64,000 nucleotides of DNA from Gammaproteobacteria bacterium (GTDB taxonomy: Bacteria > Gemmatimonadota > Gemmatimonadetes > Longimicrobiales > Gaopeijiaceae). The notes beneath the pieces were generated by a model. It made no database searches. It was not told where the DNA came from and saw nothing but the letters and a program-made list of their open reading frames with translations. How positions within the stretch are numbered: position 1 is the stretch's first letter; each line of letters begins with the position of its first letter. Shown here one piece after another: positions 44,889 to 62,719 of the stretch. The position numbers were made by a program, and so were the translations under genes. The stretch spans positions 67,365-131,364 of the forward strand of contig JAPPHB010000063.1 in the NCBI GenBank assembly GCA_028821195.1, written 5' to 3'.

Positions 44889-45311
44889 TCACCCGTCGGG
44901 CATCCGAACCGGCACGGGTTGGCGCCCGCTCCGCCGATAGATCCGGAAATCACCGTCCAGCGTAAGGACCACGCTGCCCGGGTGTTGCTGCGACATGCGG
45001 ACGATGCACGCATCCGCCAGCGACATGGGGACGTCGTGATACTTGTCCATCATACGCCGGACCGTACCGGCTTCATCGTCCAGCCGAAACGACACGTCGA
45101 GGACGCCGCGCTCGATCAGCGAGACCACCGCCGCCTGCGCTCCGGTGGCGAGGCGATATGCAAGAAAACAGGCCTCGGCGATGACTGCTTCACAGGTCAG
45201 GAACGGAGGGCTTGCCCGGGTCCACTGCTCGCGGGCCCAGCGGTGATACCTGTCCCGGGGATTCAGGAACGCGATCAATGGGCCCGTATCGAGGATGACC
45301 TCCGGTTTCAA
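44889..45311 (-). CDS. vapC: VapC-type PIN-domain ribonuclease toxin
   Basis: A 140-residue PIN-domain protein, probably a tRNA or rRNA-cleaving toxin paired with the upstream antitoxin. The acidic metal site is visible: Asp8 in VILDTGPL, Glu in CEAVIAEAC, Asp in SLADACIVRMS, and Asp in LTLDGDFRIYR. It starts at a TTG (45311) that shares bases with the antitoxin stop (TTGA). Co-transcribed from the promoter at 45578-45605. Confidence 0.92.
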   Translation of the reverse strand: MKPEVILDTGPLIAFLNPRDRYHRWAREQWTRASPPFLTCEAVIAEACFLAYRLATGAQAAVVSLIERGVLDVSFRLDDEAGTVRRMMDKYHDVPMSLADACIVRMSQQHPGSVVLTLDGDFRIYRRSGRQPVPVRMPDG

Positions 45312-45547
45312 CGACCGAACCCGCGCATGTAGTCCGGGTTCACCGACAGGTCTTCCGGTCCGGGGAAGGCGCCAGCGAGGTCTGCCGCCTGGGACAGAGC
45401 CGATTCATGCTGCGTGGACCTCTCCGAGCGCAGAAACGCCTCGAGGATCTCGCGAATCAGCGCGGATCTGCTGACGCCACGGCGACGCGCGGCCTCGGTG
45501 ACCTCCCGGGCCAGTTGCCTCGGCATCTTCAACGATATGGGCGTCAT
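45308..45547 (-). CDS. vapB: VapB-type ribbon-helix-helix antitoxin
   Basis: A 79-residue antitoxin. Residues 1-45 are a ribbon-helix-helix DNA-binding domain (MTPISLKMPRQLAREVTEAARRRGVSRSALIREILEAFL), and the acidic tail (GPEDLSVNPDYMRGFGR) would block the toxin. I chose the ATG at 45547, with AAGGAG about 11 bases upstream, since a TTG further up adds residues without similarity. Such antitoxins usually repress their own operon, and a promoter inside an inverted repeat lies just upstream. Confidence 0.9.
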   Translation of the reverse strand: MTPISLKMPRQLAREVTEAARRRGVSRSALIREILEAFLRSERSTQHESALSQAADLAGAFPGPEDLSVNPDYMRGFGR

Positions 45548-45577
45548 CCGCAGTGGATCTCCTTGCAAGGTATAACG

Positions 45578-45605
45578 ATTATGGGGAATAACGTAGTACC
45601 GTCAA
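45578..45605 (-). promoter_or_regulatory. vapBC promoter within an inverted repeat
   Basis: On the minus strand TTGACG (45600-45605) and CATAAT (45578-45583) are 16 bases apart, a good -35/-10 pair. The region is AT-rich against its GC-rich surroundings. An imperfect inverted repeat, GGGGAATA (45583-45590) and TATTACCCC (45609-45617), straddles the promoter and is a fitting operator for the VapB ribbon-helix-helix domain, which is inference. Confidence 0.6.
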
Positions 45606-45669
45606 CAGTATTACCCCGTGGCGTCCGGGGTCAACCCGGGTTCTGGAATGGCTCGGGGCGTAGAGCGCC

Positions 45670-46872
45670 TCACTCCCGCTCCGGCTCGGGCAGCCTGGCC
45701 CACACCATCCATCCCATGCACAGCACCGCGACCGCCCCGATGACGGTGTTGCCGCCGAATCCCAGGTTCGCATAGGAGTACCCCGCCAACATCGCGCCCA
45801 GCGCGAATCCCACCTGCCCGAGCGCAACCGTCAGGCTCATGAGAGAACCGCGCCGGTTGGCGGGCACGAGGGCCGTCAGGAGCGCCGAGTAAGGGCTCGT
45901 GCGCATCGCGATCAGCATCATCATCAAGGCGTAGAGCGGATACGCGACCCAGAGGCTGGTGATGAGCGGCACCGTCGCGAGCATGACCACCGAGAGGCCC
46001 AGGCAGGAGGAGATCACCATCACCTTGCGGCCCACCCGGTCGGACAGTCTCCCGGCCTGGGGGCCCGCGATGACGTTGGCCACCCCGGCCACCAGGAACA
46101 GCGATGCGATCTGCCCGGAGGTGGCGTCGAGGGAGGCTTCCAGCCAGGTGGGGAAGTAGACCACGAAAAGCGCGACGCCGAGCGACACGGTGAAGAAGGC
46201 GAGCGCGGCAAAGGCGATCTCCGGGCGGCGCAGCATGACGGCGTAGCCCGCGATCGCGCGGTTGACCGTCAACCGCGAGCGCCGGCGCTTCACGGGGGGC
46301 TGCGGCAGCCGCGTGTACACCAGCAGGAAGGTCAGCGCCATCATGACGCCGAAGAAGTAGAAGGGGCTGCGGAAGCCGAATTCACCCGCCAGCAGGACGC
46401 CCACGGGGATGCCGATGATGAGGCCGACGGCCGACCCGCTCATGACCCAGCCGGTCGCCCATCCGCGCCGCCTGTAGGGGAAATAGTCGCCGACGTAGGA
46501 CACGGCCGCGCCGGAGAGCACGCCGCCCGCGGCGCCCGCGAGCATGCGCACCACGAGGAACTCCGGAAAGGAATCCACGAAGGTGTGCAGGGCCAGGGCG
46601 CAGGTCATCGCCCCCGCTCCCAGCAGCAGGATGCGGCGCCGGCCGATGCGGTCGGAGATCGGGCCGGAGATCACGGCCATGATCCCCACCATCAGGCTAT
46701 AGACCGTGACCAGGGTGCCCAGAAGGGCATCGGCGATGCCCAGCTCTTCGCGGATCAGGGGCAGGATCGGGGCGATCACCATGGTCTGACTGCTCGCCGA
46801 GAACACGAGCAGCCAGAGGGCGAAAACGACGAGGTAGGGGTGGGCCGGTGCGGTATGCGCCTTCACGAGCAT
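45670..46872 (-). CDS. MFS transporter
   Basis: A 400-residue major facilitator permease with about 12 membrane helices. The A-motif-like loop after helix 2 reads GPISDRIGRRRI, and a second copy in the C-half reads GRLSDRVGRKVM, typical of drug-exporter-like or sugar MFS proteins. I chose the ATG at 46872. The substrate cannot be told. It is the nearest gene to the vapBC promoter and transcribed in the same direction, ending 65 bases from the inverted repeat. Confidence 0.9.
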   Translation of the reverse strand: MLVKAHTAPAHPYLVVFALWLLVFSASSQTMVIAPILPLIREELGIADALLGTLVTVYSLMVGIMAVISGPISDRIGRRRILLLGAGAMTCALALHTFVDSFPEFLVVRMLAGAAGGVLSGAAVSYVGDYFPYRRRGWATGWVMSGSAVGLIIGIPVGVLLAGEFGFRSPFYFFGVMMALTFLLVYTRLPQPPVKRRRSRLTVNRAIAGYAVMLRRPEIAFAALAFFTVSLGVALFVVYFPTWLEASLDATSGQIASLFLVAGVANVIAGPQAGRLSDRVGRKVMVISSCLGLSVVMLATVPLITSLWVAYPLYALMMMLIAMRTSPYSALLTALVPANRRGSLMSLTVALGQVGFALGAMLAGYSYANLGFGGNTVIGAVAVLCMGWMVWARLPEPERE

Positions 46873-46939
46873 GGTCCGGGTTGTCCCGCGCAACGCATCC
46901 CGGACCGCTTCGGCCGCTCCTGCCGGAGGAGTGCCGCCG

Positions 46940-48673
46940 TCAGCTGCCCGACGGTGCCGCCGCCCCTCCGTCCGGGCTGCGCGGGTCGGGCGCGCCGATG
47001 AACTCGCCGGTCTCCGGATCGACCCCGATCGAGCTGGCCCGCCCCTGGCTGCCCCTCACCTGGACCTCATGGCCCATCGCCTCCAGCGCCGCGAGGTCCC
47101 TGTCCGAAATGCCGCCTTCCTCGATGCGCACGTTGTTCGGGAGCCACTGGTGATGGATCCGGGGCGCGGCCACCGCCTCCTCGATGGTCATGCCGTGGTC
47201 GACGATGTTGAGCACCAATTGCATCACGGTATTGATGATGGTGCGCCCGCCCGGAGTGCCGATGACCGCCACCAGCTCGCCGTCACGCGACAGCACCGAC
47301 GGGCTCATGCTCGACAGCATGCGCTGCTCGGGCCGGGCCAGGTTGGCTTCAGTGCCGATCAGTCCGCGGTCGTTGGTGAGGCCCGGCTTGCCGTTGAAGT
47401 CGCCCATCTCGTTGTTGAGGAGGAAGCCCGCGCCGGGCACCGTGATCTTCGAGCCGTAGCCCTGCTCCAGCGTGTAGGTGACCGAGACCGCCATCCCGTC
47501 GCGGTCCACCACCGAATAGTGGGTGGTCTCGGTGCTCTCCTCCGCCATGGCCAGTTGGGACGGCTCGGAGTGGCCGGCCTGGTCGGCGTGGATCCTGTCC
47601 CGCAGTTCGTCCGCGTAGTCCTTGCTGGTAAGCCGCTCCAGCGGCACGTCGACGAAATCGGTGTCGGCCAGATGCTGGGCCCGGTCGCGGTAGGCGAGGC
47701 GCATCGCCTCGGTGAGATGATGGACGTAGGCGGCGGAATTGTGCCCCAGCGCCGTCAGGTCGAAGCCTTCCAGGATGTTGAGCATCTGGACGATGGCCGT
47801 GCCTCCGCTCGAGGGGGGCGGCATCGAGACGAGGTCATACCCGCGGTAGGTCCCGTGGATGGGAGTTCGCTCCTGCGCCTGGTAGCGGGCCAGGTCCTCC
47901 TCCGTGATCATGCCGCCGCCGCGCACCATCTCCTCGGCCAGCAGGCGCGCGGTCTCGCCGCTGTAGAAGCCGTCGTGGCCCTGGTCGCGGATGCGCGCCA
48001 GCGTGCGCGCCAGATCCGGCTGCCGGAAGAGCTCTCCCTCCTCGTAGGGAACGCCGTCCTTCGAGAACTGCGCGACGCTTGCGGGATAAGGCTCCATGCG
48101 CGGGAGGACGTTGGCCAGTGAACGCGCCAGCGCAGGGCTGAGGGTGAAGCCGTCGCCGGCCAGCCCGACCGCGGGCTCCACGAGATCCGCCCAGGGCGTT
48201 GCGCTGCCGTAACGCTCGTGGGCGAGGGCGAAGCCCGCCACCGTGCCCGGAACGCCGACGGCGAAATAGCTGGTGTGATGGATGTCGAAGGAGTACTCGC
48301 CGTCCTCGTCGGTGAACATCTCGGGATGGGCCGCGAGCGGCGCCTTCTCGCGGAAGTCGATGGCCGTTGCGCTGCCGTCCGGGCTGCGGATGACCATGAA
48401 GCCCCCGCCCCCGATGTTCCCCGCGGTCGGGTGGACCACCGCCAGGGCGAGGCCGGTGGCGATGGCGGCGTCCACCGCGTTTCCTCCGCGGGCCAGCACC
48501 TCGGCGCCCACCTCGCTGGCGATCAGGTTGGCGGACGACACCATCCCGTGCTGTGAGCGCAGGCCCGGCGTCGGGGGGGCGCCATCCTCCGCCCGGGGGG
48601 GCACTTCGCCTCCCTGGCAGGCGGTCACGGCAACGAGCAGCGGGACGATCCAGCGCGACGTCGAATTCATCAT
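46940..48673 (-). CDS. ggt: gamma-glutamyltransferase, lipoprotein
   Basis: A 577-residue N-terminal-nucleophile enzyme that splits gamma-glutamyl bonds of glutathione and related peptides in the periplasm. The signal MMNSTSRWIVPLLVAVTAC has a lipobox Cys19. Substrate-site residues include NIGGGGFMVI and AIDFREKAP. The autocleavage site is TETTHYSVVD, where the second Thr becomes the nucleophile of the small subunit; NNEMGDF and GTPGGRTI follow. All are present, so it should mature and be active. GGT precursors of this length are normal. Confidence 0.95.
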   Translation of the reverse strand: MMNSTSRWIVPLLVAVTACQGGEVPPRAEDGAPPTPGLRSQHGMVSSANLIASEVGAEVLARGGNAVDAAIATGLALAVVHPTAGNIGGGGFMVIRSPDGSATAIDFREKAPLAAHPEMFTDEDGEYSFDIHHTSYFAVGVPGTVAGFALAHERYGSATPWADLVEPAVGLAGDGFTLSPALARSLANVLPRMEPYPASVAQFSKDGVPYEEGELFRQPDLARTLARIRDQGHDGFYSGETARLLAEEMVRGGGMITEEDLARYQAQERTPIHGTYRGYDLVSMPPPSSGGTAIVQMLNILEGFDLTALGHNSAAYVHHLTEAMRLAYRDRAQHLADTDFVDVPLERLTSKDYADELRDRIHADQAGHSEPSQLAMAEESTETTHYSVVDRDGMAVSVTYTLEQGYGSKITVPGAGFLLNNEMGDFNGKPGLTNDRGLIGTEANLARPEQRMLSSMSPSVLSRDGELVAVIGTPGGRTIINTVMQLVLNIVDHGMTIEEAVAAPRIHHQWLPNNVRIEEGGISDRDLAALEAMGHEVQVRGSQGRASSIGVDPETGEFIGAPDPRSPDGGAAAPSGS

Positions 48674-48875
48674 CCGGTTCTCCAGTCTCGATTCGGATTA
48701 CGAACCCGGAATATGCACGGGTGCGCCGCCGAATCACCAGACCCGGCGCGCGAATCCCGGAACCAGCCGCGCCGGGCGCTGGTACTGATGGCGCGGGCGC
48801 GGCTCCATGGCAGCCAGCCCATGCCGCTCCGCCTCCAACCCCTCACGAGACCGCGGACGGAAGGGCCGGCCCGAG

Positions 48876-49631
48876 ATGACACCGTGGGTACGAAGACTGA
48901 TCACCGCCAACGTGGTGGTCTTTCTGCTTTTTGCGGTCGCGGGGCCGCGGTCCGACGGCTTCTGGGTCCTCACCCTGGTGCCGCAGTTGGCCTATCTGCG
49001 GCCGTGGACGCTCCTCACCTACATGTTCCTCCATGCGGGCTTCTGGCATCTCGCCCTCAACATGCTGGGGCTCTACTTCTTCGGTCCCCGGCTGGAGCTG
49101 CGCATGGGGTCCGCGCATTTCCTCAGGCTCTACCTGTTCGGCGGCCTTGGAGGCGCGCTTTTCTCGTTCCTGCCTCCCATGGCGCCGGTCGTCGGGGCCT
49201 CGGGCGCGGTGTTCGCGGTTCTGCTGGGTTTCGCCCGCTACTGGCCCCGCGAGCCGGTCTACATCTGGGGTATCCTGCCGATTCGCGCGCGATGGCTGAT
49301 CCTGTTTCTTGCGGGCTTCAGCCTCTTCGCGGGCATCACTCAGTTAGACGATGGCGTGGCGCACTTCGCGCACCTGGGCGGCTTCGCCGGCGCGCTGGTC
49401 TATCTCTGGGCCCGGCAGCGCCGCCGGCGGATGGTGCGGCGGCGCATGCAGGGAGTGGTCAAGGCCCGGCCCGAAGCGGAGATGCGGCGCAAGTGGGACC
49501 TCATCCCCGTGGACGAGCTGCACGAACTCAACCGCGCCGAGGTCGTCGCGCTGCTCCGCAAGGTGCAGGCGTTCGGCGTCCGCAGCCTCACGGTGGATGA
49601 GCGCGCGTTTCTGGACCGCATGGCGCCCTGA
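48876..49631 (+). CDS. rhomboid-family intramembrane serine protease
   Basis: A 251-residue polytopic protein. Catalytic Ser109 is in GASGAVF and His166 in AHLGGF, with the HLALNM loop giving the third conserved site. Six membrane segments span about 8-175, then a cytoplasmic basic tail with KARPEAEMRRKWDL, ending in helices (about 185-251). The ATG at 48876 has AAGGG upstream; earlier in-frame starts add Arg-rich residues that look like non-coding shadow. Substrates are unknown; it lies divergent from ggt. Confidence 0.93.
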   Translation: MTPWVRRLITANVVVFLLFAVAGPRSDGFWVLTLVPQLAYLRPWTLLTYMFLHAGFWHLALNMLGLYFFGPRLELRMGSAHFLRLYLFGGLGGALFSFLPPMAPVVGASGAVFAVLLGFARYWPREPVYIWGILPIRARWLILFLAGFSLFAGITQLDDGVAHFAHLGGFAGALVYLWARQRRRRMVRRRMQGVVKARPEAEMRRKWDLIPVDELHELNRAEVVALLRKVQAFGVRSLTVDERAFLDRMAP

Positions 49632-49657
49632 AGCCTCCATCCTTGCCTGGAGTTCCA

Positions 49658-51391
49658 ATGAGCAAGCTGTCCCTGGTTGTTCCGCTCACGCGATCGGCGC
49701 TCCTCGCCGGGGTCTTGATCGCCGCCTGCGAGCCGGGTCCCGCCGAGTACGCGGATCTGGTGCTGACGGGCGGCAAGGTGGTGACCGTGGACGACGCCCT
49801 GCCGGAGGCGGAGGCGCTCGCCGTGACCGGGTACACCATCACGGCGGTGGGAACGAACGAGGAGATCGCCGGCCATGTCGGGCCCTCGACCGAGGTCGTC
49901 GAACTCGACGGCCGGCTGGTGATCCCCGGCTTTATTGAGGGTCACGGCCACTACATGAGCCTGGGCCGCTCGAAGATGATCCTCGACCTCACCACCGCTA
50001 CCAGTTGGGACGACATCGTGCAGATGGTGGGGGAAGCGTCCAGCCGGGCGGCTCCGGGCGAGTGGGTGACCGGGCGCGGCTGGCACCAGGAGAAGTGGAC
50101 CTCGACGCCTGAGCCCAATGTCGACGGCGTGCCGCTGCACACCGAGCTTTCGGCTGCGAGCCCGGAGAACCCGGTCAGTCTGGGGCACGCCAGCGGCCAC
50201 GCCTCCTTCGCCAACGCCCTCGCGATGCAGCTCGCCGGGATCGACGACAACACTCCCGACCCGATGGGCGGCACCATCGTGCGGGACGCCTCGGGCGCCG
50301 CCACCGGCCTGATGCGCGAGACCGCCCAGCTCCTGGTGAGCGAAGCCGTCGCACGCTCGGGTGAGGGACGCTCCAGCGAGGACGTGGACGCCGAGTTCGT
50401 GCGCGCGGTCGAGCTGGCCGGTGCGGAAGCCCTGGCCTACGGGGTGACCAGCTTCCAGGACGCGGGCACCGACTTCGGCACCATCGACCGGTTGCGCGCG
50501 TTGGCGGCTGAGCGCGCGCTCCCGGTGCGCCTCTACGTGATGGTGCGCCGCGAGTCCAACGAGGTCATGGACGCAAAGCTCCCGGACTATCGCATTATCC
50601 CCGAGGGCAACGACTTCCTGGCGGTGCGCTCCATCAAGCGCCAGATCGACGGGGCCCTGGGGTCGCACGGGGCGTGGCTGCTCGAGAACTACATCGACAT
50701 CGACAACCCGGGACTGGTGCTCGAGACCGTGGAAGACATCACCGGCACCGCCGAGGTCGCCATCCGGCACGGCTACCAGGTCAACACCCACGCCATCGGC
50801 GACCGCGCCAACCGCGAGGTGCTCGACATCTACGAGAAGGTCTTCGCGGCCAATCCCGACCGCACCGATCTGCGCTGGCGCATCGAGCACGCCCAGCACC
50901 TCAACCCGGCCGACGTCGGGCGTTTCGCCGAACTGGATATCATCGCGTCGATGCAGGGCGTGCACGCCACCTCCGACGGACCCTGGCTGGCGGACCGCCT
51001 GGGGCGGGAGCGGATGATCCAGACGTCCTACGTGTGGCGGGACATCCTCGATGCCGGGGTCATGATCGCGAACGGCACGGACGTGCCTGTGGAGCATATT
51101 TCGCCGATCGCGAGCTTCTACTCATCGGTGAGCCGGCGCATGAACAATGGCGAGGTTCTCTCGGGCGAGCATCGCATGACGCGCGAAGAGGCGCTCGAGA
51201 GCTACACCATCAACAACGCCTACGCCGCCTTCGAGGAGCACCTGAAGGGCTCGCTCACTCCCGGCAAGCTGGCCGACATCGTCGTCCTCTCGCAGGACAT
51301 CATGACGATCCCCGAGGAGGAGATTCCCGCCACCGAGGTCGCGTACACGATCGTCGGCGGCGAGGTGAGGTACTCGGGCCCGGAGGGCTGA
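49658..51391 (+). CDS. YtcJ-like metal-dependent amidohydrolase, lipoprotein
   Basis: A 577-residue amidohydrolase-3 family enzyme exported as a lipoprotein: SKLSLVVPLTRSALLAGVLIAAC ends in a lipobox Cys near 24. A beta-sandwich with YADLVLTGGKVVTVDD and RLVIPGFIEGHGHY (HxH metal motif), then QVNTHAIGDRANREVL, RIEHAQHL and NGTDVPVEHISP supply further ligands and the Asp. Related YtcJ proteins act on N-acyl or amide substrates, but none is shown here. The ATG at 49658 has GGAG five bases upstream; the rhomboid stop is 26 bases away. Confidence 0.93.
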   Translation: MSKLSLVVPLTRSALLAGVLIAACEPGPAEYADLVLTGGKVVTVDDALPEAEALAVTGYTITAVGTNEEIAGHVGPSTEVVELDGRLVIPGFIEGHGHYMSLGRSKMILDLTTATSWDDIVQMVGEASSRAAPGEWVTGRGWHQEKWTSTPEPNVDGVPLHTELSAASPENPVSLGHASGHASFANALAMQLAGIDDNTPDPMGGTIVRDASGAATGLMRETAQLLVSEAVARSGEGRSSEDVDAEFVRAVELAGAEALAYGVTSFQDAGTDFGTIDRLRALAAERALPVRLYVMVRRESNEVMDAKLPDYRIIPEGNDFLAVRSIKRQIDGALGSHGAWLLENYIDIDNPGLVLETVEDITGTAEVAIRHGYQVNTHAIGDRANREVLDIYEKVFAANPDRTDLRWRIEHAQHLNPADVGRFAELDIIASMQGVHATSDGPWLADRLGRERMIQTSYVWRDILDAGVMIANGTDVPVEHISPIASFYSSVSRRMNNGEVLSGEHRMTREEALESYTINNAYAAFEEHLKGSLTPGKLADIVVLSQDIMTIPEEEIPATEVAYTIVGGEVRYSGPEG

Positions 51392-51410
51392 GGCGCGTTT
51401 GAGCCTCAGC
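51387..51410 (+). terminator. hairpin over the amidohydrolase stop codon
   Basis: GCTGAGGC (51387-51394) and GCCTCAGC (51403-51410) form an exact eight-base stem with an eight-base loop. The stop codon lies in the left arm (51389-51391). No T run follows, so termination is uncertain, but it separates the amidohydrolase from the repeat array. Confidence 0.45.
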
Positions 51411-51497
51411 GGGGCGGAGGTCCACCGCCCGCGCTCATGCCCGCCTCGTGGTTCACCCCCCCCGCGCCCCGATCGCCCCGTGCTCTTTCTGTTTGAG

Positions 51498-51585
51498 TTC
51501 TCGTAATAAGAGCTTGGATTTTTCGTAATAGAGAGTCAGATTTCTCGTATCAAGGAGTAGGAGTTCTCGTAATAGCGCCACCTTT
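51498..51585 (+). repeat. four-copy direct repeat with a 22-bp period
   Basis: Cores at 51498-51508, 51520-51530, 51542-51552 and 51564-51574 read TTCTCGTAATA, TTTTCGTAATA, TTCTCGTATCA and TTCTCGTAATA. Starts are exactly 22 bases apart. Flanks between copies are related but looser (AGAGCTTGGAT, GAGAGTCAGAT, AGGAGTAGGAG). The array is AT-rich amid GC-rich DNA and ends 14-25 bases before the ATPase ATG at 51599, which suits an operator array or nucleation site. No matching array was seen elsewhere in the window. Confidence 0.85.
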
Positions 51586-51598
51586 CCCAAATCTGCCG

Positions 51599-52906
51599 AT
51601 GTACTCCAGACACCTCTATCCCGGCGTGCGCGACATGCTCGGCGAGTTCCGGATCGTCTACGTGACGGGTCCAAGGCAGTCCGGCAAGACCACCCTGGTG
51701 CGCGGCGTCGCCGCCGAGCTGGGCATGCGCTACCTGACGCTCGACGACCCCGCCGTGCAGGCGGCCGCGGCCTCCGACCCGTACGGTTTCGTGAGGTCCT
51801 TCCATAACGATTCGGTCGTGCTCGACGAGCTCCAGCAGGTTCCGGAGCTTGTGCCCGCCATCAAGGAGGCTTCGGACCGGTTCGCCAGTGCGCCGCCTGA
51901 CCGGCAAGGGCTCGCTCGCCCGCGCAAAGGGCTGTTCCTCCTCACCGGGTCGGCCGACATCTTCCGGTCCGCACGAGCCCAGGAAGCTCTGCCCGGCCAC
52001 ATGGCCCGCCTGGAGCTCCTGCCCCTGTCGGTTGCCGAGCTTCGGGGCAGCCGGCAGAACCTGATCGACTACCTCCTGGCAGGGGACTTTTCCCCTTCGC
52101 GCGCCGCGGTGCAAGACCATCAAGCCCCGACCCGGGAAGAGATCGCAAGGCTGATCCGCATGGGGGGTTATCCCGAGGTTCAGGGCATGAGCCGGCGGGC
52201 ACGCACCATCTGGTTCCGGTCCTATACGGAAGGGCGCTTCTTCAAGGACTTCGACACACTCTACAGCGCCCGCGGCGACTATCATTCCAGGCTTCGCGCA
52301 CTGGCCCCCTACCTGGCGGGGCTGAGCGGCAACCTGCTCAAGTACGCCAACCTCGCGAACGACCTCGAACTGAACGACAAGCTCGCCAAGAGCTACGCGG
52401 AGGTCCTCGAACTCATGTTCCTGATACGTCGCGTCCCCTCCTATCGGAAGAACCTGGCGCGGCGACTCACGGTGCGAATGCCGAAGCTGCACTTCGTGGA
52501 CACGGGTCTCGCCGCGCACCTCCTCGGCCTGCGCACGGAAGCCCGGCTCCTCACCAGCCCGCACTACGGGGCATTGCTGGAAACCCTCCTGTTCATGGAG
52601 TGCGCGAAGCACGCAGAGTGGGCCGAGGAGGAGGTTGGTCTGTACCACTTCCGGGACAAACGCAAGCGCGAGGTCGATATCGTGCTGGAACGGCCCGACG
52701 GCCGCATTGTCGGCGTGGAGGTCAAGGCTTCCGCCACGCTCCGGCGCCGGGACTTCGACGGTCTCGCGGCCCTGGCCGAATTCGCGGGGAACGCCTTTGA
52801 ACGCGGCGTGATAATGTACACCGGGCTGCAGGCACTTCCCTTCCACCGGGGGCCGGTGCGCCTGCACGCTCTCCCCCTTGCCCGAATCGCTCGCACGACG
52901 CCGTGA
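51599..52906 (+). CDS. AAA-type ATPase with DUF4143 C-terminal domain
   Basis: A 435-residue protein. The N-terminal P-loop is GPRQSGKTTLV, Walker B-like VVLDELQQVPEL, and sensor LTGSADIFRS. The C-terminal DUF4143 part includes LHFVDTGLAAHLLGL and, near the end, a restriction-endonuclease-like core with YHFRDKRKREVDIVLE and IVGVEVKAS, that is a D...ExK motif. Such proteins are widespread in bacteria and archaea without an agreed function; some are proposed to act in defence or as accessory stress genes. The ATG at 51599 directly follows the 22-bp repeat array, likely its regulatory region. Confidence 0.92.
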   Translation: MYSRHLYPGVRDMLGEFRIVYVTGPRQSGKTTLVRGVAAELGMRYLTLDDPAVQAAAASDPYGFVRSFHNDSVVLDELQQVPELVPAIKEASDRFASAPPDRQGLARPRKGLFLLTGSADIFRSARAQEALPGHMARLELLPLSVAELRGSRQNLIDYLLAGDFSPSRAAVQDHQAPTREEIARLIRMGGYPEVQGMSRRARTIWFRSYTEGRFFKDFDTLYSARGDYHSRLRALAPYLAGLSGNLLKYANLANDLELNDKLAKSYAEVLELMFLIRRVPSYRKNLARRLTVRMPKLHFVDTGLAAHLLGLRTEARLLTSPHYGALLETLLFMECAKHAEWAEEEVGLYHFRDKRKREVDIVLERPDGRIVGVEVKASATLRRRDFDGLAALAEFAGNAFERGVIMYTGLQALPFHRGPVRLHALPLARIARTTP

Positions 52907-52934
52907 ATCGGTCTCGCTCGGAGCTCCAGCGCGC

Positions 52935-55520
52935 TCAGGTTCCCGGCGCGGCCTCCTCCATGCGGGCGCGGTAGATGGCGCGGGCCTCGTCGAACTGGGC
53001 GTACACGTGCTCCTTTTCGGCGTCCGAGCGCCAGCCGGGCCACAGCTCGGCCATCGTCTGAAGCCTGTCGATCCAGCGCAGCGCGTAGTCGGCGGCGCTG
53101 CGGCTGCGCACGGGGGCCCCGCCCACCGTGACCCACACCGGGTTGGTGAGCGCGAGCGGGTAGGAGGTGTCGAGCGGGAAGCGGTCCTCGGGGTCTCCCT
53201 GGACGCGGACGTGGATCCAGCTGCTCCGGTCCACCCGCAGGGTGCGCTCCACTTCGAGCGAACGCCGGTCCCCCCCGAAGGGAATCTCCTCCACGACCTC
53301 GCCGTTCATCACGACGGTCGCCGTACGCATGGGCACGATCCCCCAGGCCCGGATCGCCACCGTCACCTCGCCCCCGCCGGCGGGCAGCGCCAGCTCTTCT
53401 CCGGGGATGCGGCCGTCGACCCTGACGTCGAGCAGGGGACCGCTGGAGACGAAGGCGTTGCCGGCGCGCATCCCGTCGAACCACCCCTCCATCGACAGCC
53501 TGCCGTCCGGCGTCCGCACGTAGGTCCGCATCGATCCCACCAGCGGGGTTGCCTGCAGATTGGAGATGGAGTCCTCGCCGCCGACCACCGCGGCACGTAT
53601 GTCGTTGCTCCAAACGGCATAGAGGGGCGGGTATCCGTCCTGCGGCGTGGACCACTCCACCGCGTCGGCGGCCTCCAGGGCGGCGTCGACGATGAACCCC
53701 TTGGCGCCACCCAGCGTCCCCTCCAGCGGATCCCCGTTGAAGAAGGAGTGCACGTAGCCGGTGATGGCGCCCTGCGCCTTCGCCTTTCTGAACATGTCGG
53801 TGTTGGAGGGATAGAGGCTCTCGATGGCCGTCTGCTCGTACCCGGTCACAAAGGGGGAGATGAGGTGGTCGGTCATGCCGAACATGAAGACGTGTCCGTA
53901 GAAGGGCGGACGGTATTCCTGGCCCACCACCACCACCATGTCGTCGCGCGAGAGGGGATGGGCGCCGCCCCCGGGCACGAAGAACTGGTGGTCCAGAATG
54001 CGGTTGTCCTTGTTGGCCACCTGCTCGGCCACCACGTCCTGGTCCTCGGCCTCCGACATCATCATGAGGTTCTCGAGGGTGTTGTGGAGGTTGCCGCCGT
54101 AGTTCATGTGCACATGGGTGGAGCCCGAGTACCAGCCCTCGTCGCTCAGGTCCGAGATCTCCTCCAGATGCACGCTGACGCGGTGGTTCTCGTCGGCCGC
54201 GATGTTCAGGTCGAACTCCTGCGGCACGTGCTCGAATCCACGCGTCACCAGCATGCGCGCGGGACCGGGAGGCAGTTCCACCTGGAACACGCCGGAGTGG
54301 TGGAAGATGCGGTCTCCGGCGCGGCTGACCCGTGAGTACTCGCCGGCGGGGGTGTAGTGCTTGCCGTCGGAGGCGGTGAGATGGACGCGGGCGCCCACGG
54401 GTTCCCCGTTGGCGCCCAGGGTCGTGACCGTGAGGGTGCCCATGGGCTCCATCCAGCGGCGCTCCCGGATGGTCACCGTGCGGAGCGCCCCGCCGTAGGT
54501 CTCGAGCAGGGTGAGCTGGGGCAGCCCGCCCTCGTTGCTGATGAACGCGATCCACTCGCCGTCCGGTGACCAGCGCGGGTGAAATGCGTCGTGCTCGAAG
54601 AAGGTGAGCTTGTAGGGCTCGCCGCCCGTCGTGGGCTGGACGTAGAGGTTGTTGAACTGGTCGGCCGCGCCCGCCGTGGACGAGTAGACGAAGCGGCGGC
54701 CGTCGAGCGATACGTCCGGCTGGGTGCGGTAGAGGCTCTGCTCCTGCAGCACCGCGACCCGCTCGTCGATGCCGTTCTCGCGCGCCGGAACGCGGTACAC
54801 GTTGCCGCTCCCCAGCGGCACGTCCCGGTTGGAGACGATGAGGAGTTCGTCGCCGGAGGGCAGCCATGCTGGCGAGATGTGCATGTCCCAGGCCCCGAAG
54901 TAGAGGCGGGGCCGTCCGAAGCTGTTGTCGTAGCTGACCGCGACCTCGTCGCCTGCCCAGGACCCGTCCGCGATCTCGCGGATGTAGACGTCGAAATAGC
55001 CGTTGGACTGGGTGGAGACGTAGGCGAGCCGGCTGCCGTCGGGCGAGAAGCGCGGGTCGACGTAGATCTGGTCGTCGTCGGTGAGCCGGCGGGTCTCGCC
55101 GGTGTGCGTGTCGAGGATCTCCAGCTGGATGGGGCCGCCCCCGGCGTCGGCGGTGTAGACCAGCCAGCGCCCGTCCGGCGACCAGTTGGGGGAGGAGAGA
55201 TAGTCCCCGGAACGGACCAGCTCGGTTGCGATCCCCGTCTCCGGGTCTACGCTCCAGATCGAGCCGCTCATGCCCACCGCGATCCGCTCGCCGTCCGGCG
55301 ACCACGCCGGATACCAGGGGGTGGAGCTGGGGGCGGGGGGAAAGTAGAAGTTGTGCATGTAGTTGCCCCCGTGCGCGGCCGCGGCGTACTGACGCTGGGC
55401 GCTGGCGGCCGAGGGCCCGGCCACGACCGCCAGCACGCCGAGGGCGGCGAGGGCGACGAACGCGGGGGAAGCGGTCGGGCGGGGGGCGGTGCGGCGATGC
55501 GGGAGGGGGGCCACGGACAT
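52935..55520 (-). CDS. TolB-like propeller fused to CehA/McbA-type PHP domain
   Basis: A 861-residue exported protein. A long signal-like N-terminus (about 1-42, ending SAASAQ) is followed by TolB/PD40 propeller repeats to about 370 (AWSPDGERIAVG, NWSPDGRWLVYT, RFSPDGSRLAYVS, RWSPDGEWIAFIS), a beta-sandwich, and from about 510 a PHP-superfamily metal domain (YSGSTHVHMNYGG with HxH, then LYPSNTDMFRKAKAQGAITGYVH and GEDSISNL). CehA-type proteins hydrolyse aryl carbamates or phosphoesters, here only by family analogy. The ATG has AAGGAG seven bases upstream. It converges on the ATPase gene with a 28-base gap. Confidence 0.92.
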   Translation of the reverse strand: MSVAPLPHRRTAPRPTASPAFVALAALGVLAVVAGPSAASAQRQYAAAAHGGNYMHNFYFPPAPSSTPWYPAWSPDGERIAVGMSGSIWSVDPETGIATELVRSGDYLSSPNWSPDGRWLVYTADAGGGPIQLEILDTHTGETRRLTDDDQIYVDPRFSPDGSRLAYVSTQSNGYFDVYIREIADGSWAGDEVAVSYDNSFGRPRLYFGAWDMHISPAWLPSGDELLIVSNRDVPLGSGNVYRVPARENGIDERVAVLQEQSLYRTQPDVSLDGRRFVYSSTAGAADQFNNLYVQPTTGGEPYKLTFFEHDAFHPRWSPDGEWIAFISNEGGLPQLTLLETYGGALRTVTIRERRWMEPMGTLTVTTLGANGEPVGARVHLTASDGKHYTPAGEYSRVSRAGDRIFHHSGVFQVELPPGPARMLVTRGFEHVPQEFDLNIAADENHRVSVHLEEISDLSDEGWYSGSTHVHMNYGGNLHNTLENLMMMSEAEDQDVVAEQVANKDNRILDHQFFVPGGGAHPLSRDDMVVVVGQEYRPPFYGHVFMFGMTDHLISPFVTGYEQTAIESLYPSNTDMFRKAKAQGAITGYVHSFFNGDPLEGTLGGAKGFIVDAALEAADAVEWSTPQDGYPPLYAVWSNDIRAAVVGGEDSISNLQATPLVGSMRTYVRTPDGRLSMEGWFDGMRAGNAFVSSGPLLDVRVDGRIPGEELALPAGGGEVTVAIRAWGIVPMRTATVVMNGEVVEEIPFGGDRRSLEVERTLRVDRSSWIHVRVQGDPEDRFPLDTSYPLALTNPVWVTVGGAPVRSRSAADYALRWIDRLQTMAELWPGWRSDAEKEHVYAQFDEARAIYRARMEEAAPGT

Positions 55521-55731
55521 CGGGTTGCTCCTTGGGTTGTCGGTGGGTTTGCCGGGCGGCCGTGGATGGCTCGGTCGGGCGCGGCGTCCATGCCTCCGCC
55601 AGTGTAGGCCGCGGGCGCGCTGCGGGCTACCGGGCCGGCGTCGGGGGCGGTTGCGCCGGAGCCCCGCGCGGCAGACGGTGTACGGCGCAACGGGGAAGCG
55701 AGCCATGTCCACACCAGCGAGGTGACCGCCG

Positions 55732-57054
55732 GTGCCGCAATCAAGCGCGATGTGCCGAACGAGCCTGTTCCTGGCGGCCTCGCTGGCGGCATGGGCGGTC
55801 CGGGCCGCCCCGGCGGGAGCGCATCCGGTCGCGCCGGTGTCGGCAGAGGCCGCGGATCAGGAGCCGGTTCCTGAGGATCAGGGACTCCCGGAGCCGGCAC
55901 CCGGCTCCGATCTGCGCGTCTCGCTCATTACCGTCGGCGCCGGACCCGTGGTCTACGAGATGTTCGGCCACAACGCCATCCGCATCCAGGATCCGGCGCG
56001 CGGCCTGGATGTGTCGTACAACTGGGGCATGTTCAACACCGGCGAGGAGGGCTTCTTCTGGCGCTTCCTCCTGGGCGACTGGCAGTACTGGATGGCCGGC
56101 CTGTCCTCCGAGGGAATGATCGCGCATTACGTGGCCTCGGACCGCGGCGTGGTGGAGCAGGAGCTGGACCTGACCCCGGATCAGCGCCTGACGCTTCTCG
56201 GCATGGCCGAATTCAACGCGCGCCCGGAAAACGCCTGGTACCGGTACCAGTACTTCCTCGACAACTGCTCGACGCGCGTGCGCGACGCCCTGGATGTCGT
56301 CCTGGACGGACGCCTGCGCGAGGGGTTCGGCGAGGTCCCGGGCGAGACCTTCCGCTTCCACACCCGGAGGCTCACGGCAGACAACGCGCTGGTCTACGTG
56401 TCGCTCGACTTCTTCATGGGCGGCCGAGGCGATCGTCCCGTCACCGCCTGGGACGAGATGTTCATTCCCATGATGATGCGCGACTTCCTGCGCGACACCG
56501 ACCTGGTCACATCCGAAGCCGTATTGGACGACCCGGCCCGCGTCCCCCCCGCCGAACCCCCCCGGCACTTCCGGTCGTTCTACCTGACCGGCATTCTGCT
56601 CGCGTGGCTGGCCGGAGGCGCATTCGTCTCCTTCCCGCGACTGAGGACCGCCGGACCGACCCTGATGACGCTCCTCAAGGTGGAGTTCGTGCTGGTCGCC
56701 GGAATCTGGTCTCTCGTCGCGGGCCTGTCGGGGCTGGTGATGATCGTGTCGCACTTCACCGCCCACGAGTTCATGCACTGGAACGAGAACTTCCTGCAGG
56801 CGAACCCAGTGTCGCTGGTGCTGGCGGTTGCGCTCGGCCCGGCGGTCTTCGCCGACAGGTGGCGCCGGCTGGCGACCCGAACGGCGCAGGTGGCGGCCGG
56901 GGTGTCGGTCCTCGGCCTCGTGATGCAGGTTGTTCCCGGGATCGACCAGGTGAACGGGTACCACCTGGCGGTCGCGGTGCCGGTGCACCTGGCGATTGCG
57001 TGGGGCGTGCCGGCAATGGTGCGCGTCGACACGGAGCGGTCCGCGGCAAGCTGA
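55732..57054 (+). CDS. DUF4105 periplasmic domain with C-terminal membrane helices
   Basis: A 440-residue membrane protein. After an N-terminal signal region (about 7-30) comes the DUF4105 (Lnb N-terminal periplasmic) domain: YEMFGHNAIRIQDP near 85, YNWGMFNT, and YRYQYFLDNCSTRVRDALD near 185. The conserved His (FGH) and Cys (DNC) are kept and could be catalytic. Four hydrophobic helices follow from about 285 to the end, with HEFMHWNENFLQANP as an exposed loop. I use the GTG at 55732, with GAGG about nine bases upstream; the ATG at 55750 is an alternative. Function unknown. Confidence 0.88.
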   Translation: MPQSSAMCRTSLFLAASLAAWAVRAAPAGAHPVAPVSAEAADQEPVPEDQGLPEPAPGSDLRVSLITVGAGPVVYEMFGHNAIRIQDPARGLDVSYNWGMFNTGEEGFFWRFLLGDWQYWMAGLSSEGMIAHYVASDRGVVEQELDLTPDQRLTLLGMAEFNARPENAWYRYQYFLDNCSTRVRDALDVVLDGRLREGFGEVPGETFRFHTRRLTADNALVYVSLDFFMGGRGDRPVTAWDEMFIPMMMRDFLRDTDLVTSEAVLDDPARVPPAEPPRHFRSFYLTGILLAWLAGGAFVSFPRLRTAGPTLMTLLKVEFVLVAGIWSLVAGLSGLVMIVSHFTAHEFMHWNENFLQANPVSLVLAVALGPAVFADRWRRLATRTAQVAAGVSVLGLVMQVVPGIDQVNGYHLAVAVPVHLAIAWGVPAMVRVDTERSAAS

Positions 57055-57153
57055 TCGCGCGCCCCTGATCCCGCGCCACGATGCATACACCGTCACCAAC
57101 CGGGACCGACTCGATGGGGGAGTCCGCATGACACGTCGCAGCGAGGAAGCCCG

Positions 57154-58920
57154 GTGAGCCCGGGTGTCGACCGCCAGGACGTCCGCTACGAACCGGACGA
57201 ACGTCCTCCCCTGCCGATCACGGCCGGGCTGGGCATCCAGTACGCCATCCTGTGCATCGCGAGCGTCATCCTGACGCCCACCGTGATGATCACCGTCGCC
57301 GGCATGGGCGACGACTACCTGTCGTGGGCGGTGTGCGCCGCGCTGGTGATCAGCGGAGTGACGACGGCGATCCAGGCGCGCAAGGTGGGGCGCATCGGGG
57401 CCGGCTACATCCTCGTAATGGGGAGCACGAGCGCGTTCCTGGCGGTGAGCGTGACTGCCCTGCAACAGGGCGGGCCGGGCATGCTCGCGACCCTGATCAT
57501 CGCGTCCGCGCTGGTTCAGTTCGTCCTGGCGGCGAGAATGGCGCTTCTGCGGCGCATCTTCACGCCCACGGTGGCCGGCACCGTGCTGCTGCTCATCCCG
57601 GTGACCCTCTCGCCCCTCATCGTCAACAAGCTGGGCGACGTGCCCCCGGACGTTTCGCCTGCCGCGGGCCCGGTCATCGCGGGAGTGACGCTGCTGGTGA
57701 TGATCCTGGTACCGCTTCGCTCCTCCGGGGTGCTGCGCCTGTGGGCCCCGGCCATCGGCATCGTCGCGGGCTGCCTCACCGCCAGGCTGGGGTTCGGCAT
57801 GTACGACACGTCGTCGGTCGCGGACGCCGCCTGGATCGGGCTCCCGCAACTCGCCTATCCCGGGGTCGACCTGAGCTTCCGGCCGGAGTTCTGGGCTCTC
57901 CTGCCGTCCTTCATCATGGTGACGCTTGTGGGCGCGCTGGACACGCTCGGGGACGCCATCGCCATTCAGCGCGTCTCGTGGCGCAGGATGCGCGCGATCG
58001 ACTTTCGCTCCATCCAGGGCGCGATCTCGGCCGACGGCGTGGGCAATCTGCTGTCCGGCCTCGCGGGGACGGTTCCGAACACCACCTACGGCATGAGCAT
58101 CAGCGTCGCGGAACTCACCGGAGTCGCCGCCCGCCGGATCGGGATCTGCGTCGGCATCGTGTTCGTCTCGCTCGCGTTTCTGCCCAAGTTCATCAACCTG
58201 ATCATCGCGATCCCGGGGCCAGTCGTCGCGGCCTACTTCATCATCATCGTGGCCCTGATCTTCGTCTTCGGGATGAGGATTCTGCTCCAGGAGGGCCTGG
58301 ACTACCGCAAGGGCCTGGTGGTCGGCGTCGCATTCTGGATCGGGCTCGCGTTCCAGTTCGACTGGATCTACCCCGAGTACTTCCAGGGGATATGGGCCGA
58401 ACTGCTCGGCAACGGCATGACCGTCGGCGGCTTCACGGTGATCCTGCTGGCGATGTTCGAGGAGATCGTCGGAGGACGCCGCGCGCGCCTGAAGACAAGG
58501 CTTACGCCCGAGGCCTGGTCAGAGATCGACGACTTCATGGTGACGTTCGCCGCGCGCAAGGGCTGGAACGAGGACATGGAGCGGCGCCTGCGCGCCGTGG
58601 GCGAGGAGACCGCGCACATCCTCATGCGGGGAGCGGATGACGAGGATGAGGAGGCGGACGCATCGGAACGCCGCCTGCTTCTCATCGCCGGAAGCGACGG
58701 CGACGCAGCCGACCTCGAGTTCATCGCAACCACCGACGAGACCAACATCGAGGACCAGCTGGTGATGCTCAGCGAGGGGGCCCCGAGCGGCGGGTCGGAG
58801 ATCCCGCTGAGGCTTCTGCGCCACTACGCCTCGGCCATCCGTCACCAGCAGTACCACGACATCGACATCCTGTCGATTCGGGTGGAGAGCGCCGCGCAGC
58901 CGGGCGGGGGGATCGACTAG
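57154..58920 (+). CDS. NCS2-family xanthine/uracil permease with extra C-terminal domain
   Basis: A 588-residue nucleobase-cation symporter-2 homologue. Membrane helices span about 20-445, with PGVDLSFRPEFWALLPSFIMVTLVGALDTLGDAIAIQ carrying the family's Asp-Gly-Asp-like substrate-site region, and SADGVGNLLSGLAGTVPNTTYGMSISV. The last 135 residues are soluble: SEIDDFMVTFAARKGWNEDMERRLRAVGEETAHIL, then RRLLLIAG and HQQYHDIDILSIRVE, a pattern close to an HATPase_c_2 (RsbW-like) fold without its nucleotide motifs. The GTG start has GAGG seven bases upstream. The substrate is a purine or pyrimidine by family. Confidence 0.9.
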   Translation: MSPGVDRQDVRYEPDERPPLPITAGLGIQYAILCIASVILTPTVMITVAGMGDDYLSWAVCAALVISGVTTAIQARKVGRIGAGYILVMGSTSAFLAVSVTALQQGGPGMLATLIIASALVQFVLAARMALLRRIFTPTVAGTVLLLIPVTLSPLIVNKLGDVPPDVSPAAGPVIAGVTLLVMILVPLRSSGVLRLWAPAIGIVAGCLTARLGFGMYDTSSVADAAWIGLPQLAYPGVDLSFRPEFWALLPSFIMVTLVGALDTLGDAIAIQRVSWRRMRAIDFRSIQGAISADGVGNLLSGLAGTVPNTTYGMSISVAELTGVAARRIGICVGIVFVSLAFLPKFINLIIAIPGPVVAAYFIIIVALIFVFGMRILLQEGLDYRKGLVVGVAFWIGLAFQFDWIYPEYFQGIWAELLGNGMTVGGFTVILLAMFEEIVGGRRARLKTRLTPEAWSEIDDFMVTFAARKGWNEDMERRLRAVGEETAHILMRGADDEDEEADASERRLLLIAGSDGDAADLEFIATTDETNIEDQLVMLSEGAPSGGSEIPLRLLRHYASAIRHQQYHDIDILSIRVESAAQPGGGID

Positions 58921-62452: not shown

Positions 62453-62496
62453 TGCCGCGACAGATACATCCCTCTGCCGCGACAGATACATCCCTC
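62453..62496 (+). repeat. two exact tandem copies of a 22-bp unit
   Basis: The unit begins TGCCGCGACAGATACATCCC and repeats without mismatch at 62453-62474 and 62475-62496. No third copy adjoins. The unit does not show an inverted repeat. Exactness suggests a recent duplication. Confidence 0.85.
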
Positions 62497-62516
62497 TCCA
62501 AGACGCTCTGCACGGT

Positions 62517-62570
62517 GTTGCATTTACAAAAAGGCAACAAATTGTTGCATTTACGGTTTTGCAACACACT
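62517..62570 (+). repeat. 27-bp tandem pair with paired GTTGC/GCAAC half-sites
   Basis: Two units (62517-62543 and 62544-62570) each start GTTGCATTTAC and contain GCAAC 12 bases after GTTGC, at 62517-62521/62534-62538 and 62544-62548/62561-62565. Where the units meet, GCAACAA and TTGTTGC (62534-62548) form a second, tight palindrome around one base. AT-rich against its surroundings. Looks like a cluster of protein-binding half-sites. Confidence 0.8.
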
Positions 62571-62650
62571 GGCGAGGGTTCGGTGGAGTTGGATGCTGGC
62601 CATGCGTCGGGTTATCAAGGGCCACCGCGACGGGATCCCCTTTGGCGCGC

Positions 62651-62719
62651 CCGGATCCACCCCGTCAGCGTGACCGGATCCACTCCGTCACCGCGCCCGG
62701 ATCCACCCCGCCACCGCAT
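62651..62719 (-). repeat. 23-bp tandem array (three copies) crossing a gene end
   Basis: Copies start at 62651, 62674 and 62697, each with CCGGATCCACYCCGYCA and then a variable tail. The right copy encodes the last residues of the neighbouring hydrolase (GWIRAR) and the middle copy contains its stop codon (62688-62690), so the array appears to have grown from the 3' end of that gene. A degenerate GGATCC copy may lie at about 62631. Confidence 0.8.

Follow-up and report, generated by a model that had tools for sequence, protein, structure and literature searches.

The array and the gene that follows it

We analysed a stretch of 64,000 nucleotides (here called the window), in which a phased direct-repeat array of four units with a period of 22 bp (51495 to 51577, forward strand) lies 5' of a gene on the same strand (51599 to 52906) encoding a 435-residue AAA_14-DUF4143 ATPase with a nuclease-like domain, assigned to the PDC-S01 family by its open reading frame, Pfam matches, and a PADLOC profile. 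The array was identified by core search, Tandem Repeats Finder, and comparison with shuffled sequences. Its cores, with the consensus TTYTCGTAATA, start at 51498, 51520, 51542, and 51564, which bears out the exact 22-bp spacing claimed in the original prediction; three of them are exact matches, namely, those of unit 1 (TTCTCGTAATA, 51498 to 51508), unit 2 (TTTTCGTAATA, 51520 to 51530), and unit 4 (TTCTCGTAATA, 51564 to 51574), and that of unit 3 (TTCTCGTATCA, 51542 to 51552) has two mismatches (all on the forward strand). Tandem Repeats Finder reported a period of 22 with 3.5 copies at 51498 to 51575 (score, 70), and the periodicity score of the region upstream of the gene (L015) was reached by none of 200 dinucleotide shuffles. 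The array had also been described as an AT-rich island running up to the start codon. The island is there (57.8% A+T in 51490 to 51598 versus 30.8% for the whole window), but the array stops short of the gene, the core of unit 4 ending at 51574 and the ATG lying at 51599, with 24 nt between them.

In the source genome (4.2 Mb), the exact core gave three matches, all within the window array, and the reversed control gave none. A wider regulon in this genome was rejected, since the exact core occurs nowhere outside the array. The window holds no further core between 51575 and 57409, and its gene is thus without a second array of the kind described below for some relatives.

Other short repeats lie at 62453 to 62560 and 62646 to 62717 of the window, behind a frame that by eye is ligase-like; they comprise a 22-bp sequence that is perfectly duplicated, TTGCATTTAC repeats, and three copies of a 23-bp unit. 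The three-copy unit, near 62.7 kb, adjoins a hydrolase-like frame, again judged by eye, and no DUF4143 match was found near these repeats.

Domains of the ATPase

The Pfam scores of the window protein were 73.2 bits for AAA_14 (cut-off, 27) and 138.4 bits for DUF4143 (cut-off, 28.1), and the PADLOC profile PDLC04790 (PDC-S01) matched it over nearly its full length (residues 1 to 430; E value, 1.5e-129), which places it in a candidate defence family. No NCBIfam match was obtained, and a sequence search of the PDB returned no relative better than an E value of 0.038. The AAA+ ATPase domain (residues 17 to 148; 51647 to 52042, forward strand) was located from the AAA_14 match and from invariant residues; we take G24-T32 to be Walker A and D76-E77 to be Walker B.

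An AlphaFold2 model (mean pLDDT, 90.3; pTM, 0.91) contains the AAA+ module, a winged helix-turn-helix (residues 228 to 303; 52280 to 52507, forward strand), and a nuclease-like domain of the PD-(D/E)XK type (52565 to 52891, forward strand). The secondary structure of the middle part, with three helices (228 to 241, 249 to 255, and 260 to 272) followed by a two-strand wing (276 to 279 and 296 to 299), is that of a winged helix, and helix 260 to 272 is its putative recognition helix. The nuclease-like domain was assigned from invariant residues and weak fold matches. The D...ExK core that had been noticed at the C terminus proved to be conserved: D360, E374, and K376 are invariant across 39 aligned rows (the window protein and 38 relatives), and the motif sits at strands 358 to 364 and 370 to 375 in the beta core of the model.

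The whole chain had SSO1545, PABY2304, RuvB, and ORC proteins as neighbours in Foldseek. The C-terminal fragment resembled McrC, Cas4-like ACE1, Card1, Can2, and EndoMS, none at an E value of 0.001 or below, and the winged-helix fragment gave weak matches to MarR-type repressors, all at E values above 0.01. The viral fold library gave no informative match. By Pfam, the two neighbours of the window gene encode an amidohydrolase and a PD40 propeller protein, neither of which is a known defence gene.

Upstream arrays across the family

A significant three-unit upstream array (one reached by at most 2 of 200 shuffles) was found in 73 of 175 distinct PDC-S01/DUF4143 proteins from four phyla and in 9 of 400 control regions, some of which overlap genes or second arrays. 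The period was 22 or 23 bp in 61 of the 73, 32 or 33 bp in 7, and other in 5. The presence of phased repeats upstream of homologous ATPase genes had been set beforehand as a test of the original prediction, and 61 of 175 with 22/23-bp arrays across four phyla is the outcome; the p values of the survey are only descriptive, because the scan, the threshold, and the upstream window were set while the family was being viewed, and related genes in it are not independent. Array-positive proteins numbered 48 of 90 in Gemmatimonadota (the phylum of the window) and 7 of 30, 9 of 28, and 9 of 27 in the phyla of a Prevotella, a Pelagibacter, and a Lachnospira genome, respectively, the surveyed genes coming mainly from the top of each match list. 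L049, L050, and L106 were dropped before counting (95 of 98 scored), as were 6 of 36 and 5 of 60 entries, and counts are given for distinct proteins because five scored rows of the Gemmatimonadota set repeat identical proteins. Among the controls, four had period 23; three of these are second arrays behind ATPase genes (L047, L051, and L109), and the fourth is the repeat near 62.7 kb of the window. By the scan, the array is absent in 107 of the 175 family members, a figure that includes irregular arrays, because the scan requires equal spacing.

The array genes carried three (46 genes), four (21 genes), or five (1 gene) units, and the 5' arrays ended a median of 26 nt before the start codon, with some units touching it. 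Equal spacing is fixed by construction for the three units that build each matrix; outside those three, the 22/23 classes contained 21 extra units, of which 20 lay 22 to 24 bp from their neighbour and one lay at 46 bp, or two periods (hand count). On a FastTree tree of the 175 proteins, the 22/23 label needed 15 changes versus 50.5 for shuffled labels. The 22/23 array was present in 13 of 13 members of the window's subclade (all with period 22), 54 of 76 members of its larger clade, and 7 of 9 members of a remote clade, and in none of the members of clades of 35, 18, and 10. The array is a real, conserved cis-element of the ATPase family.

On viral contigs, 9 of 41 loci (7 of 37 when distinct proteins are counted) had an array, invariably of period 22 or 23. 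Of 15 loci on named plasmids, 8 had one, including those of Ruminococcus albus 7, Rhodoferax antarcticus, Mesorhizobium sp. AR02, and Agrobacterium fabrum Kin001; the three Thermus plasmid loci all failed the array test, and no archaeal plasmid was among the matches listed. The 32/33-bp period, which corresponds to three helical turns, was seen in the remote members L138, L140, L141, L115, L118, L199, and L202.

The window array in other genomes

A scan for two cores in phase, with one genome per species for 84,980 species, returned 10 loci. An ATPase orthologue lies directly after the array in four of them (L002, L003, L006, and L009), and no ATPase relative was found by tblastn in the fetched stretches of L001, L007, L008, and L010. 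L004 has a window-type array with an ATPase remnant (45% over 80 residues), and L005 has a five-unit window-type array with no detectable ATPase; a different AAA ATPase frame lies about 500 nt away from the latter on the opposite strand, as judged by eye. L007, from a Bacteroidaceae genome, holds a separate 22-bp repeat run with the core TCTTATCGTAATAGGATAGTAA.

We compared the neighbours of the array at these loci, using positions 45001 to 58000 of the window, frames of at least 110 residues, and an E value of 1e-10. L009 has the same gene context as the window. L002, L003, and L006 lie in other contexts, and the only gene that they have in common with the window locus is the ATPase; because it alone is shared, a linked regulator, which had been offered as an alternative binder of the array, is disfavoured; for the window's clade it was rejected by this comparison.

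In seven sampled genomes whose window-clade ATPase has the exact core, 13 of 14 core matches were at the array (combined by hand). The family sample of 96 genomes had 64 exact core matches outside those seven genomes (counted by hand); the reversed pattern matched 34 times in the whole sample, which leaves the outside matches partly unaccounted for by this control.

Overlap of arrays with promoters

We then examined the promoters of 76 array genes with non-identical upstream regions. A standout sigma-70-like promoter (one scoring above at least 96 of 100 shuffles) was present in 19 of the 76 genes and in 9 of 150 controls, and in 18 of the 19 it lay inside the array. The best promoter match lay inside the array in 57 of 76 genes and outside it in 19, and shuffles of local composition placed 52% inside. 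In R. albus 7 (L266), TTGACT and TATACT, 17 bp apart, occupy the same place of units 1 and 2, and similar relatives exist. The start-to-start distance of -35 and -10 boxes equals the 22- to 24-bp repeat. This spacing offers a second reason for the period, besides the two helical turns; the 32/33 class fits the helical reason only.

A consensus promoter scan of the window's upstream region found no promoter, and its boxes are degenerate. From its clade and relatives, the -35-like position was placed at 51493 to 51498 (TTGAGT; TTGATT in relatives) and the -10-like position at 51515 to 51520 (TGGATT), both on the forward strand. Among 12 compared members of the window's clade, TTGATT or TTGAGT occurs in unit 1 of nine and ATATT in unit 2 of five (hand count). 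The suggestion that the locus is a self-regulated module is favoured because the arrays of relatives overlap promoter boxes, and it is weakened by the degenerate boxes of the window itself.

A strong inverted repeat (score of at least 10) was found in the start region of 27 of 107 arrayless loci, none of 66 loci with a 22/23 array, none of 7 with a 32/33 array, and 1 of 147 controls, where loci are counted with identical proteins included; 80 of the 107 arrayless loci had neither an array nor a strong inverted repeat. By a looser measure (a repeat that beats all 20 shuffles), an inverted repeat was present in 40 of 107 arrayless loci, in 4 of the 66 loci with a 22/23 array, in 2 of the 7 with a 32/33 array, and in 5 of the 147 controls. 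Going by the sequences, direct arrays and dyads seem to be alternative solutions to one task. L126, L135, L174, and other arrayless members have long inverted repeats, some of them across the start codon.

Proposed function of the array

We consider it moderately probable that the array consists of binding sites for the adjacent ATPase and that, on the 5' side, it is the operator-promoter of the ATPase's own gene and represses it. With a unit of two helical turns, the sites would lie on one face of the DNA, and AAA+ protomers could dock there as neighbours, each by its winged helix. Where a relative has a recognisable promoter, its -35 and -10 boxes lie in two adjacent units, so that occupancy would exclude RNA polymerase and hold a potentially harmful ATPase-nuclease at a low level. 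Loss of the bound protein, for instance through its recruitment to invading DNA or a change of nucleotide state, would relieve the repression. In this scheme we infer the binding by the ATPase's own winged helix, the oligomer geometry, repression rather than activation, and the role in defence. For the 5' arrays, self-repression by the ATPase, with the binding presumed, is the most parsimonious account. It leaves the second arrays behind some genes unexplained, unless these aid repression through DNA looping, and from those second arrays the earlier option of a DNA-anchored module of another purpose has gained weight.

Arrays behind the gene and at loci without the ATPase

Six of 68 array genes (L035, L040, L044, L047, L048, and L109) have a second array of the same core 3' of the stop codon, with at least two units within 80 bp of it and in the same orientation; L051 is likewise arranged. 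The same end sequence thus lies on both sides of these 6 of 68 relatives and on one side only of the window gene. Behind the gene, cores occurred at a rate of 0.762 per kb on the same strand, compared with 0.048 on the opposite strand and 0.030 elsewhere in the loci. In the 255 bp behind the surveyed genes, an array was detected in 12 of 172 (three of the 175 were too short), 7 times with period 23. By Pfam, the next gene is a convergent peptidase gene at L035 and a convergent aminotransferase gene at L044, L047, L048, and L051, and because the next gene is convergent, the second array at L035, L044, L047, and L048 is no promoter.

The aminotransferase locus was compared in eight genomes of the window's genus, six of which have the ATPase with units on both sides. 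The source genome has two units and no ATPase there (L273, G000:C119 near 162752), and the locus of G280 (L272), again with no ATPase, has five units that form two groups separated by about 100 bp. The far flank is kept at both ATPase-less loci (94% and 96% identity). In eleven more distant genomes, neither the ATPase nor units were found by the same scan in 1.5 kb of flank, and one further distant genome offered 72 bases of flank only. Loss of the ATPase by recombination between the arrays, as in solo long terminal repeats, would fit the aminotransferase locus. The unit sequences and flank junctions of the ATPase-less loci differ from those of the occupied loci.

L016 and L093 have a 23-bp array, TGCGGCTATGTGTCGGTTA, just 3' of the ATPase stop codon, and by eye its reverse complement resembles the upstream arrays of another clade (L101 and L105). 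Two viral contigs (L260 and L261) hold an orphan two-unit array, TTTCAATCGGTC, with a 22-bp period in a phage intergenic region, and the fetched stretch contains no relative of the ATPase; the array is a candidate decoy or relic. Two of the three patterns searched on viral contigs gave no match.

These observations bear on an alternative that we regard as possible but rather unlikely, in which the array is mainly an assembly place for the ATPase-nuclease, on one or both sides of the gene, and promoter control is secondary; in its variants, the protein is kept there in a held form or is part of a mobile or selfish cassette. Same-core arrays behind the stop codon, the convergent genes next to four of them, the six genus genomes with units on both sides of the ATPase, and the units seen at L273 and L272 all speak for such docking, as do the arrays without an intact ATPase in L004, L005, and the phage region of two contigs, and the AAA+/winged-helix fold matches to ORC proteins. 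Against it, the scan found no second array of at least two units in 62 of 68 array genes, and the 5' arrays stop close to the start codon (median distance, 26 nt) and in relatives coincide with promoter boxes; moreover, the ATPase-less loci, which may have lost the gene or may never have had it, differ in units and junctions from the occupied loci.

A related and slightly more doubtful reading takes the PDC-S01 array to be an address. The ATPase-nuclease would assemble on arrays specific to its clade, flanking the gene on one side or both, in a held state that doubles as repression; array, gene, and array would form a cassette whose arrays remain once the gene is gone, and infection would free or divert the protein. 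If this were true, one array would couple sensing, expression, and nuclease release, and orphan arrays serving as decoys would be expected in phages, where one candidate was found.

Variation of the core and other possible readers

Self-repression by the ATPase would make the protein the reader of its own array, and we asked how core and protein vary together. The motifs of 61 genes fell into 17 clusters at one chosen cut-off, every cluster with period 22 or 23, so that the core differs between ATPase clades and the period is almost constant. The source genome has 11 DUF4143 matches, eight of which were scored for arrays; the window gene, L017, and L018 have 22/23 arrays, each with its own core, and the paralogue L014 also passed the scan, with period 18. 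The types of recognition helix broadly track the motif clusters (ELNDKLAKSY in the window's clade and mostly T in the middle in others), but not one to one, as L109 and L044 share a helix and differ in core. The partial rank correlation with motif distance was 0.185 for the recognition helix, 0.105 for the whole winged helix, 0.099 for the AAA domain, and 0.122 for the nuclease domain. The expected covariation of repeat and winged helix is thus visible by clade but weak beyond ancestry (0.185 versus 0.10 to 0.12 for other regions), and it is no more than suggestive of a recognition helix that reads the array core.

The near-constant period and the clade-specific core make the array a candidate specific DNA ligand for PDC-S01 members. 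They also suggest a way in which several paralogous ATPase-nucleases could coexist in one cell with no cross-talk, since every one of them would have an operator to itself.

Unrelated regulators, too, bind phased direct repeats, and a separate host regulator or nucleoid protein might read these; we consider this improbable, given that the cores differ by ATPase clade and even between the source-genome paralogues (the window gene, L017, and L018), that the window core occurs nowhere else in the source genome, and that no gene besides the ATPase is common to the window, L002, L003, and L006.

A role of the repeats in the leader RNA, as an element of translational control or attenuation, is very improbable. 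The array does lie just 5' of the start codon, which some units touch, but the leader of the window gene showed no more stable folding than its shuffles (z, +0.9), no Rfam match was found in 51200 to 51800 of the window, the periods of 22, 23, 32, and 33 agree with helical turns of DNA, and the arrays of relatives contain promoter boxes. An RNA leader element was rejected on the lack of a fold above shuffles and of an Rfam match.

Iterons are repeats of about 17 to 22 bp read by winged-helix Rep proteins. An iteron-type origin or partition site of a small replicon would be comparable in repeat length and in its type of reader, and the approximately 22-bp spacing and autorepression are likewise shared, the reader and the autorepression being putative here. 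Even so, we give this origin still less credence than the RNA leader: the protein belongs to a different family, a replicon is not evident, the two genes adjoining the array (the only ones searched for this) encode an amidohydrolase and a PD40 propeller and are neither rep nor par, and the source genome has three different 22/23 arrays among eight scored of its 11 DUF4143 matches. That the array is a chance repeat or neutral minisatellite is scarcely credible, since other short repeats do exist in the window but the survey, in which one period recurs family-wide with different cores, contradicts it.

Relation to known systems

Archaeal Orc1/Cdc6 with ORB repeats and DnaA with DnaA boxes likewise combine an AAA+ module and a DNA-binding domain with repeats beside their own genes, and the archaeal ORC2 structure 1w5t is a fold match of the window model. 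Orc1/Cdc6 and DnaA are replication initiators, whereas here a nuclease-like domain is fused to the ATPase and a genome has many paralogues with different arrays. The ends of Tn7-type elements carry phased TnsB sites of about 22 bp that flank a gene set with AAA+ and PD-(D/E)XK parts. The likeness, in having sites on both sides, holds here only where a second array exists; in contrast to Tn7, the two arrays share one orientation, and no transposase came to notice.

The archaeal ATPases SSO1545 and PABY2304 (PDB 2fna and 2qen) were the first and fifth solved-fold matches of the window protein (E values, 5.4e-7 and 4.1e-5), with about 15% identity to it. IniR of mycobacteria, whose AAA+ domain is predicted to be SSO1545-like, binds a promoter; unlike the ATPase described here, it induces another operon and has other C-terminal domains, and no nuclease is named in the available part of that report (PMC5760070).

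PDC-S01, an ATPase fused to PD-(D/E)XK, has been ranked as the fourth most common defence across prokaryotes, with 9,986 counts in archaea and 29,494 in bacteria, and most PDCs still await experimental validation (PMC12988326). The available text of that paper does not mention a cis array. PDC-S01 is also among the most abundant systems in rumen genomes (PMC13356809). Within the literature that we could search, which excluded preprints and most subscription papers, we found no description of these arrays. The arrays offer a sequence handle for finding further members, their promoters, ATPase-less loci, and possible phage decoys. For one AAA_14-DUF4143 gene, TT_P0211 of Thermus, a change in expression has been reported: its RNA was up 6.6-fold with both plasmid and Argonaute present (PMC4406477).
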